Shown piece after piece: positions 21,188 through 24,569 of a stretch of DNA of 41,388 bases. The stretch spans positions 1-41,388 of IMG/VR virus record IMGVR_UViG_3300032954_000506; one strand, 5' to 3'. A program made the translations under genes and the position numbers. This stretch comes from a virus. The stretch's first letter is position 1. Each line of letters opens with the position of its first letter. The notes under the pieces were generated by a model, which was not told the DNA's origin, ran no database searches, and saw only the letters and a program-made list of their open reading frames with translations.

Positions 21188-21239
21188 GCGGAACGTGGGC
21201 CTGTGCACACCCCTCAAATTTGGAGTTCGGAGGCTACCC

Positions 21240-22733
21240 GTGACTGACCAACCCATACTCGGGCAGGAGATCGCCGTCATCGACGGCGGCATGGACATCA
21301 CCCGGGGGTATGTCGGGCCGCTCCTGCTGCCCTATGACTCGGTGCTTTCCGGTCGCGGGGGCGGGGACCTGCGCATCTACGAGGCGGTGCTCTCGGACTG
21401 GGAGGTCAAGAGCTGCCTGTCGCAGCGCCAGCTGGCGGTGACGAGCGCCGAATGGGCGGTCGATGCCGGTGGAGATCGGCCGATCGACAAGGCCGCGGCC
21501 GACTTCCAGAAGCAGCAGCTGGAGCGGATCGGCTGGGACAACGTCACGCTGCTCATGCACTTCGGGGTCTTCTACGGGTTCAGCGCGGCCGAGCTGATCT
21601 ACAAGCGCGAGGGCGCGGCCATCGTGCTGGATGCGGTGAAGGTGCGAAACCGCCGCCGCTTCCGCTTCGACAAGAACGCGGCGCTGCGCCTGATCACCCA
21701 GAGCAACATGACCGAGGGCGTGCTGTGCGAGCTGCCGTACTTCTGGCACTTCGCCACGGGCTCGGACAACTCGGACGAGCCCTACGGCACCGGCCTTGCT
21801 CACTGGCTTTACTGGCCGGTGCTGTTCAAGCGCCAGGGCGTGAAATTCTGGATGCAGTGGCTGGACAAGATGGCGATCGGCACGGCGCTGGGCAAGTTCG
21901 GACCTAACGCCACCCCCGAAGAGAAGGCCACGCTGCTGCGCGCGGCCTCGGCGCTCGCCGGCGGCGCGGCCGCGGTGACGATACCGCAGGGTATGGCGGT
22001 CGAGCTGCTGAAGGGGGCCAATGCCGGCACGCCGGACTACGAGGCGCTGCAGGATCGAATGGATGCTGCCATCCAGAAGGTGATCCTCGGCCAGACCGCC
22101 AGCACGCAGGGCACCGCGGGCAAACTCGGCAACGATGATCTGCAGGGCGAGGTGCGCAGCGACATCATCAAGGCCGATGCGGATCTGATCTGCGAGAGCT
22201 GGAACCTAGGGCCCGCGCGATGGATCACGGAGTGGAACTTCCCCGGCGCCGCGCCGCCGCGCGTCTATCGCGTGACCGAACCGCCGGAGGATCTGGACGC
22301 TCGCGCCGCGCGCGACGGCAAGGTGAAGCAGCTGGGCTACAAGCCCACCTTGGAGTACGTGCAAGCCACTTACGGCGATGGCTGGGTCGAGGACCCCGCC
22401 GCTCAGCGCGTCGTGCCGCCGGGCGATGGGCAGGATCCGGCCGCGGCCTTCGCCGAAGGCACGCAGCCGGATGCGCCGGCGCGCATGGTCGACCAGCTGG
22501 AGCGCAACCTTGCCCCGTCCACTGCCGAGTGGGTCGGCAAGATCCGCGCGCTCACCGACCAGGTGCTCGCCGATGGCGGCACGCTCAAGGACCTGCGTGA
22601 CAAGCTGCTCGACGTCTACCCGCGCATGTCGCTCGACCAGTATGCGCTCGCGCTCGCCGAGGCTGATGCGGCCGCGAACCTCGTCGGCCGCGCCGCGGCG
22701 CGTGATCCATCCACCACAGGAGCCACCCCATGA
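21240..22733 (+). CDS. Portal protein (Mu gp29-like, DUF935)
   Basis: 497 residues from GTG 21240 with GGAGG 7 nt upstream; an earlier start in the same frame has no ribosome site. DUF935 features: GYVGPLLLPYDSVLSGRGGG, CLSQRQLAVTSAEWAVDAG, FGVFYGFSAAELIYKREG, then YWPVLFKRQGVKFWMQWLDK and VILGQTASTQGTAGKLGN. It forms the dodecameric ring through which DNA enters the capsid. ATGA overlap with the next gene. Confidence 0.88.
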   Translation: MTDQPILGQEIAVIDGGMDITRGYVGPLLLPYDSVLSGRGGGDLRIYEAVLSDWEVKSCLSQRQLAVTSAEWAVDAGGDRPIDKAAADFQKQQLERIGWDNVTLLMHFGVFYGFSAAELIYKREGAAIVLDAVKVRNRRRFRFDKNAALRLITQSNMTEGVLCELPYFWHFATGSDNSDEPYGTGLAHWLYWPVLFKRQGVKFWMQWLDKMAIGTALGKFGPNATPEEKATLLRAASALAGGAAAVTIPQGMAVELLKGANAGTPDYEALQDRMDAAIQKVILGQTASTQGTAGKLGNDDLQGEVRSDIIKADADLICESWNLGPARWITEWNFPGAAPPRVYRVTEPPEDLDARAARDGKVKQLGYKPTLEYVQATYGDGWVEDPAAQRVVPPGDGQDPAAAFAEGTQPDAPARMVDQLERNLAPSTAEWVGKIRALTDQVLADGGTLKDLRDKLLDVYPRMSLDQYALALAEADAAANLVGRAAARDPSTTGATP

Positions 22734-23098
22734 CCGATCAGCCGCCCGCGGCGGATAACTCGGCAGCGCCATCGGTCATGGATCGCATGCGGGGCTTTCG
22801 CACCCTCGGCGCCTCGGTGCTCGGCGCGACGCTGGTGCCGATCATCGTGCGCCAGCTGAAACACGTCGGCATTGAGCTCACGCCCGACGAGCAGCTCGGT
22901 CTGGCCACGCTCCTCATGGGCGTGCTGATGGCGGTGATGCGGCTGCTGACCACGACGCCGGTGGGTCGGCGGCTCAAGCCCGCGGCCGAGGAGCTGCTGG
23001 GCCACCTGGACCTGAGCCTGCTCGCGCGCTTGGTGGCCGACGAGCTCGCCAACCGCACCGCCGCTTCCGCCACCCAAAGGAGTACTCCCAATGCCTGA
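22730..23098 (+). CDS. Holin-like membrane protein
   Basis: 122 residues from ATG 22730. Two hydrophobic segments (about residues 26-42, TLGASVLGATLVPIIV, and 56-74, LGLATLLMGVLMAVMRLL) are separated by a short charged loop, then a helical tail. This two-helix form fits a holin or another small membrane protein. The position between portal and F-like gene is not the usual lysis site. No better holin candidate is apparent near the endolysin. Confidence 0.5.
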   Translation: MTDQPPAADNSAAPSVMDRMRGFRTLGASVLGATLVPIIVRQLKHVGIELTPDEQLGLATLLMGVLMAVMRLLTTTPVGRRLKPAAEELLGHLDLSLLARLVADELANRTAASATQRSTPNA

Positions 23099-23321
23099 GC
23101 CCGCACCGCTGAACAACATCATGCGCCACCAGCAGCGCCCGCTGACCGATGCCGAGCAAGCCGAGATCTTAGTACTGAAGGACAAGGCGCTGGACCTGTG
23201 GCACCACCTTGACCGGATCGGCCGCAAGAATGCGGACGCGCCCGGCTCGCGGGAGCTGTCGCTCGCCAAGACGCATGTCGAGGAAGCGGTCATGTGGGGC
23301 GTGAAGCACATTACACGGTAG
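23091..23321 (+). CDS. Acb2/Tad1-like small helical protein (possible signalling-nucleotide sponge)
   Basis: 76 residues from ATG 23091, overlapping the previous gene by 8 bp. After NNIMRHQQRPLTDAEQAEIL the sequence forms two helices: VLKDKALDLWHHLDRIG and SRELSLAKTHVEEAVMWGVK. The pattern R-x-(L/M)-(S/A)-L-A-(K/R)-T-x-(V/L)-(E/Q)-x-(A/G)-(V/F)-M, with a preceding helix and an RxLT start, matches my recollection of the Acb2/Tad1 hairpin domain. That family binds cyclic oligonucleotides or cyclic ADP-ribose products and blocks CBASS or Thoeris. Assignment is by motif memory; not all sponge residues can be checked. Confidence 0.65.
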   Translation: MPEPAPLNNIMRHQQRPLTDAEQAEILVLKDKALDLWHHLDRIGRKNADAPGSRELSLAKTHVEEAVMWGVKHITR

Positions 23322-23324
23322 CCC

Positions 23325-24569
23325 GTGGCAACCGTCGCCTACGGCTCGGTCCCCTTCCAGGAGCAGATCGCCTTCTTCCGCAAGAAGCTGAACCTGCCCA
23401 CCTCGGCGTGGACCGATGTCTATACCCGGGAGCACGACTGGGCGTTCGTGGTCGCCGGCGCCGACCGAGATGAGATCGTCAGCGCCTTCCGTGGGGCCAT
23501 CGACAAAGCGATCGCCGGCGGCGCGACGCTCGAGGAGTTCCGCAAGGACTTCGATGCGATCGTCGAGCAGTATGGCTGGGACTACCAGGGCGGCCGCAAC
23601 TGGCGCTCGCGTGTGATCTACGAAACCAACCTGCGCACGAGCTACGCGGCGGGCCGCTACGAGCAGCTGCAGCAGCTGAAGCGCCTGCGGCCGTTCTGGC
23701 GCTATTGTCACTCCGATGCGGTCGTGCATCCGCGGCCGCTGCACCTGAAATGGAACAACACGGTGCTGCCGGCAGATGATCCCTGGTGGTCGACGCACTT
23801 CGGGCCCAACGGCTGGGGCTGCCAGTGCTATGTGGAGGGGCTGAACGCGCGCGACGTCAAGCGCCTGGGCTTGGCGGTCGGGCCGCGGCCCGAGGATGGC
23901 ACCGAGACCGTGGTCATCGGCCAGCGCAGCCCGAACGGTCCGCGCACCGTCACCGTGCCCAAGGGCATCGATCCGGGGTTCGAATACACACCCGGCAAAG
24001 CACGCCTGGAATCGCAGATCCCGCCGGAGATTCCGGATCCGCCGGTCTCCGGCAGCGCCGGCGGCGCGGGCCTGCCCAATCGCCGCCCCTCTGACCCGCT
24101 GCCGGCGCCGCGCCGCGCGCCGGCCAGCCGCCTGCTACCGGCGAACCTGTCCGACGAGCGCTACACGCAGGCGTTCCTGCAAGAGTTCGGCGCGACCCCG
24201 GAGATGCCAGCCATCTTTCGCGATGTGCTCGGTGAACCGCTACCGATCGGCAATCGGCTGTTCCTGGATCCCAGCGGCGTGACGAAGATCAACAAGCGCG
24301 GCCGCGGGCAGTACCTGCTGCTGCTCGCCGATGCCATCAAGTCACCCGATGAGATCTGGGTGCGGCTGGAGTGGCATGGTGCGAGGACGCTGGCAGTGGT
24401 GCGGCGCCGATACATCGCCCGCTTCCAGGTGCAGGGTTCAGACAAACCTCTGCTCGCCGTGTTCGAACGTGGTGAGGATGGTTGGTTCAGTGTGACCGGC
24501 TTCGCGGGCGACACGCAGCAGGCCGATGACTGGCGCGTCGGCGTGCGGCTGTATCGACGCCAGGAATGA
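23325..24569 (+). CDS. Mu gp30/F-like minor head protein fused to a C-terminal PBECR2-like nuclease domain
   Basis: 414 residues from GTG 23325. Residues about 1-180 form the F/head-morphogenesis domain (FRKKLNLPTSAWTDVYTREH, VIYETNLRTSYAAGRYEQLQ, DPWWSTHFGPNGWGCQCYVE). After a Pro-rich linker (about 225-275), residues about 277-414 (LSDERYTQAFLQEFGATPEM, then RLFLDPSGVTKINKRGRGQY, EIWVRLEWHGARTLAVVRRR and RRQE) resemble the PBECR2 domain, a barnase/EndoU/RelE-type nuclease module attached to phage head proteins. It may be an injected nuclease active on entry. Catalysis is not demonstrated. Confidence 0.75.
   Translation: MATVAYGSVPFQEQIAFFRKKLNLPTSAWTDVYTREHDWAFVVAGADRDEIVSAFRGAIDKAIAGGATLEEFRKDFDAIVEQYGWDYQGGRNWRSRVIYETNLRTSYAAGRYEQLQQLKRLRPFWRYCHSDAVVHPRPLHLKWNNTVLPADDPWWSTHFGPNGWGCQCYVEGLNARDVKRLGLAVGPRPEDGTETVVIGQRSPNGPRTVTVPKGIDPGFEYTPGKARLESQIPPEIPDPPVSGSAGGAGLPNRRPSDPLPAPRRAPASRLLPANLSDERYTQAFLQEFGATPEMPAIFRDVLGEPLPIGNRLFLDPSGVTKINKRGRGQYLLLLADAIKSPDEIWVRLEWHGARTLAVVRRRYIARFQVQGSDKPLLAVFERGEDGWFSVTGFAGDTQQADDWRVGVRLYRRQE

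Follow-up and report, generated by a model that had tools for sequence, protein, structure and literature searches.

A candidate Acb2-type sponge gene without the dinucleotide-binding tyrosine between the portal and F genes of a B3-like transposable phage

The window, that is, the whole stretch of 41,388 nucleotides analysed here, is an IMG/VR virus record. Its minus strand encodes a Mu-type transposase, a Gam-like protein and a late activator, while Mu gp27-like, portal, F, G-like (PF05069), cement and capsid genes are located on the plus strand. Similar DNA is found in Pseudomonas phages B3 and JBD67 and in Stenotrophomonas phage Bhz63, and the window phage is a B3-like transposable phage. 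Placement of the gene of interest in the head operon, as given in the preliminary description, is borne out by the profile matches to the surrounding genes, and the phage is Mu-like. The slot that holds it is bordered on the left by the Mu-type portal gene (21195..22733, plus strand; PF06074, E = 7e-96) and on the right by a Mu F-like minor head gene with a C-terminal PBECR2 nuclease-like domain (23325..24569, plus strand; PF04233, PF18810). An acb2-like sponge gene of 76 codons lies between them on the plus strand, starting with ATG at 23091 and ending with TAG at 23321, and its full translation is MPEPAPLNNIMRHQQRPLTDAEQAEILVLKDKALDLWHHLDRIGRKNADAPGSRELSLAKTHVEEAVMWGVKHITR. As described previously, it overlaps its upstream neighbour (22730-23098), by 8 nt, and precedes the F-like gene, whose GTG start at 23325 follows after 3 nt. 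A ribosome-binding site, AAAGGAG (23076..23082, plus strand), is situated 8 nt 5' of the ATG. The late and head-gene codon usage of the phage is matched in the sponge-gene frame only, which scores +0.28 bits/codon compared with -0.16 to -1.44 for the other five frames. The open reading frame is a real gene.

The upstream ORF (22730..23098, plus strand) encodes 122 residues with two hydrophobic stretches and was inserted together with the sponge gene. No family above cut-off was found for it, nor any match in 80 Mu-like F loci, so that the earlier label "holin-like" lacks family support and the product is holin-like at most. It may represent a holin-like or membrane anti-defence partner of the sponge gene.

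In B3, JBD67 and Bhz63 the portal stop and the F start are within a few bases of each other, whereas 0.6 kb with two ORFs separates them in the window. In the 80 closest Mu-like loci, found by means of the F gene, the portal and F matches are mostly 11-35 nt apart; the remaining loci have longer gaps filled with unrelated sequence. An Acb2-like gene was present at the portal/F junction in none of the 80. These two findings, the usual abutment of portal and F and the 0/80 count, led to rejection of the view that the sponge gene belongs to the standard head components. In two distant Mu-like phages, L078 and L079 (portal 28%, F 38%), a member of the same subfamily occupies the identical portal/F slot, while in L007 a member is found immediately 5' of the terminase gene. 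Acb2 genes of the PaP2 type occupy later positions of the head operon in JBD67 (gp34) and L092, and are found near head genes in L091 and L158. These varied positions suggest recurrent entry of sponge genes into Mu-like head operons at differing points. The portal/F junction is a possible cargo slot for anti-defence genes. As a separate observation, this usually closed junction apparently holds short, mutually unrelated ORFs in L089, L094, L122, L149 and others, for example one of 117 residues in L089 and one of 68 in L149.

Proteins of the Acb2 family are sponges that soak up the alarm molecules used by bacteria against viruses. The sole Pfam match of the 76-residue protein is to PF24729, Acb2_Tad1_hairpin (E = 3.3e-17, 62.9 bits against a curated cut-off of 27), covering positions 3-58 of 58, nearly the entire model. 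The profile search proposed in the preliminary description thus gave a match far beyond chance, and the protein belongs to the Acb2/Tad1 hairpin family. A search of PHROGs returned phrog_1454 (4.9e-7), annotated as "unknown function", and six GenBank phage records contain relatives, all termed "hypothetical protein", with a best identity of 51%. The closest named relatives are PHROG 1454 proteins such as Aussie_37 and DVVG_00015 (44-51% identity), which have the same short architecture but retain a tyrosine lost from the window protein, have no loop insert and are annotated only as hypothetical. Single-sequence searches of viral and genome contigs yielded no relatives, and an alignment query was required. 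With this query, 221 relatives were obtained from viral contigs, 80 of which were kept, together with 40 from genome contigs, mostly of Alphaproteobacteria and Bacillota. A profile of 49 members matched Acb2 homolog 43 (9ptq), Tad1, T4 Vs.4 and PaP2 p26 in the PDB at E-values from 8e-5 to 3e-3; the single sequence matched Tad1 alone among PDB chains, at E 0.12. The PADLOC defence models gave no match for the protein. In the tree it is placed on a long branch (0.81) and groups with L007 at 91/78, which is weak support for timing the loss of the tyrosine. The short subfamily is already in Pfam; the family and its fold, like the occurrence of Acb2-type genes in the head operons of B3-like phages, are already known or readily found.

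The earlier proposal of a two-helix product agrees with the predicted structure, so that neither of the first two refuting outcomes named there, a missing profile match and a different predicted fold, arose. The AlphaFold2 model, obtained from 45 sequences, is an antiparallel two-helix hairpin with a mean pLDDT of 87.5; for most of each helix (20-46 and 54-75) the value is about 98. The first helix (residues 20-46; 23148..23228, plus strand) contains the conserved K30, corresponding to PaP2 K26 and T4 K23. The start of helix 2 lies within the signature SRELSLAKTHVEEAVMW (residues 53-69; 23247..23297, plus strand), in which R54 corresponds to PaP2 R67 and T61 to PaP2 T74 and T4 T68. The motif quoted previously, S-R-E-L-S-L-A-K-T-x-V-E-E-A-V-M-W, is exact and corresponds to this signature, whereas the "RQLT-like start" actually reads RPLT (QQRPLTD). 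When the model was compared with 350,542 PDB chains by Foldseek, Acb2 was the nearest solved structure: chains of T4 Vs.4 (7uq2) and PaP2 Acb2 (8h2j/8h2x) filled the first five places, followed by Tad1, with TM values up to 0.69 and probabilities up to 1.0 for the Acb2 chains. The E-values are weak (0.1-1), as is usual for a hairpin of 76 residues; despite these modest values, the ranking of Acb2 and Tad1 among all helical hairpins is specific. At the N-terminus, a helix at residues 5-12 is predicted in the single-sequence model and coil in the alignment-based model. In both models the protein is hairpin-only, with no further domain and no strand. The lack of a beta domain marks it as Acb2-like rather than Tad1-like; of the Acb2/Tad1-like sponge proposed originally, the Acb2-like part therefore stands and the Tad1, anti-Thoeris part is not supported.

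The unexpected feature of the protein lies in its pocket. An alignment was made of PaP2 p26, T4 Vs.4 and 72 unique relatives, with numbering two below that of the full protein. The dinucleotide-binding tyrosine, PaP2 Y11 and T4 Y8, aligns with the Y of RHxYRVLSD, where the window protein has Q15 (codon CAG, 23133..23135, plus strand) in RHQQRPLTD with no gap nearby. In a wider alignment of 113 unique members, including the window protein and the solved Acb2 types, 110 have a residue at this position: Y in 106, H in two, F in one (L007, the only member with Phe) and Q in the window protein alone. A sequencing error is an unlikely cause of Q15, because conversion of a Tyr codon to CAG takes two base changes. 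No report of a natural Y-to-Q variant was found in the literature searched, and the variant is known from one sequence. The other pocket residues are kept: K30, R54 and T61 are equivalent to K26, R67 and T74 of PaP2 Acb2, K30 and T61 also match T4, and across the subfamily the pocket Y, K, R and T are conserved with Acb2. Moreover, a loop insert of seven residues, RKNADAP (45-51; 23223..23243, plus strand), is missing from nearly all subfamily relatives, and the SDxRT segment that precedes NN is missing from the window protein. In T4 Acb2, Y8A disrupts cyclic-dinucleotide binding (PMC12657218), and T68M, reported in phage Bas35, reduces affinity (PMC12657230); the equivalent of T4 T68, T61, is conserved here. 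The trinucleotide pocket of Acb2 is separate from the dinucleotide pocket (PMC12043709), and thus some binding could survive without the tyrosine. Judged from these residues, Q15 rules out calling the dinucleotide pocket canonical but leaves family membership untouched. Binding of cyclic dinucleotides appears doubtful, while trinucleotide binding is possible by analogy with Acb2.

Comparison with solved and located sponges places the protein more closely. T4 Vs.4 and PaP2/PaMx33 p26 (also 8ixz) are, like the window protein, small single-domain phage proteins folded as a hairpin. The window protein has fewer residues, and structural alignments give about 15-21% identity to them. It carries Q where they have Y8/Y11, the region between its helices is much shorter, and the NNxxRH motif is additional. 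Of the PDB entries, Acb2 homolog 43 is matched best by the subfamily profile; it is also hairpin-only with 76 residues and has the signature REKS..KTK.EEA, but its helix ends differ. The earlier comparison with the Acb2 of Mu-like Pseudomonas phages applies in part. JBD67 gp34, an HMM match, is of the Acb2 type and likewise belongs to the head operon of a B3-like phage, but it is of the PaP2 subtype with Tyr and a long loop and is found 3' of the major capsid gene rather than between portal and F. Tad1 (CbTad1, 7uav, 8kbe) shares the hairpin and the SRE/T/EEA.MW signature, whereas its beta domain, part of the gcADPR pocket, is absent from the window protein.

A further link concerns the neighbours of the subfamily. 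Acb1 is an anti-CBASS nuclease unrelated to Acb2, and was present in three of the 50 subfamily records examined. In two of these (L060:3951-5780 and L081:4013-5881) a portal (PF06381) and Acb1 (PF23474) are fused in a single frame, adjacent or close to the Acb2-like gene, and in the record of L038 Acb1 is encoded in a frame of 604 residues about 2 kb from it. A search of the window phage for Acb1 found none, nor any co-located anti-defence gene. The company of Acb1 weakly ties the subfamily, though not the window itself, to CBASS.

Taken by analogy with Acb2, the protein is probably a sponge against cyclic oligonucleotide signalling with an anti-CBASS role, for which dinucleotide binding is doubtful. 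It would be made late, as operon position suggests, and may assemble into a homo-hexamer like solved Acb2. It would then sequester, without cleaving, cyclic oligonucleotides that come from the CBASS of the host or from the cA3 branch, which type III CRISPR shares, such that effectors stay unactivated. The trinucleotides cA3 and cAAG, held in the separate Acb2 pocket, would be the likelier ligands, with weak or altered dinucleotide binding expected because the dinucleotide-stacking tyrosine is Gln. Against this reading stand the unique Q15 at a pocket residue that matters in T4, the weak Foldseek E-values, the branch length and the missing Acb1. A narrower version is put forward only tentatively: the protein could be a natural counterpart of Y8A in a head-operon slot, a sponge without the dinucleotide pocket that keeps its trinucleotide site or has gained a new ligand, and would block trinucleotide-based CBASS, not springing Panoptes-type traps that guard dinucleotides.

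The same substitutions could also signify decay. A relic of an acb2-family gene with a ruined pocket, binding no signal and either harmless or kept to dodge Panoptes-type traps, would account for the unique Y-to-Q change, K23 to Q, the shortened N-terminus, the loop insert and the long branch; PaMx41 is reported to have lost acb2 naturally, and phage T2 to carry a change that probably breaks the pocket (PMC12657218). Nevertheless, a relic is unlikely, since the frame is intact with a good ribosome-binding site and late-gene codon usage, and the remaining signature is fully conserved, which is not expected under drift. It is similarly improbable that the entire RHxYR...SRExSLAKT subfamily is a hairpin with another role, in virion assembly, regulation or the binding of a different nucleotide. 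The setting of its genes is frequently among head genes, with portal, terminase, Mu F and capsid as neighbours, and the member in phage Aussie lies between the head-to-tail adaptor and the stopper; furthermore, PHROG 1454 carries no assigned function, and neither PaP2 nor T4 Acb2 has the N-terminal NNxxRH motif. However, the lack of such a gene at the junction of all 80 closest loci, and the fact that other phages carry members in early or recombination regions, indicate no structural necessity, and the subfamily-wide pocket conservation points towards Acb2. A Tad1-like sponge for gcADPR, that is, an anti-Thoeris protein, is very improbable. The stretch SRE..A.THVEEA.MW is close to Tad1, but the gcADPR pocket is built partly by the N-terminal four-strand beta domain of Tad1 (PMC12043709), and the window hairpin is strandless. 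In the predicted model, anti-Thoeris function is not supported.

Should the protein prove a relic or an ordinary sponge, one further member is added to a known family. As an Acb2-type sponge lacking the tyrosine, it would be a natural variant in which dinucleotide and trinucleotide binding may be uncoupled. Sponging dinucleotides triggers the Panoptes trap, whereas not sponging them exposes the phage to CBASS (PMC12657218), and this trade-off could be probed with the Q15 variant. More widely, "hypothetical" phage proteins resembling PHROG 1454, common in Alphaproteobacteria and viral contigs, become candidate anti-CBASS sponges. Regarding the right border of the slot, the PBECR2 end of the window F-like protein matches PF18810 at E = 3.4e-30, while the distant homologue in L078 has PBECR3 instead, so that the C-terminal domain of F differs between Mu-like phages.
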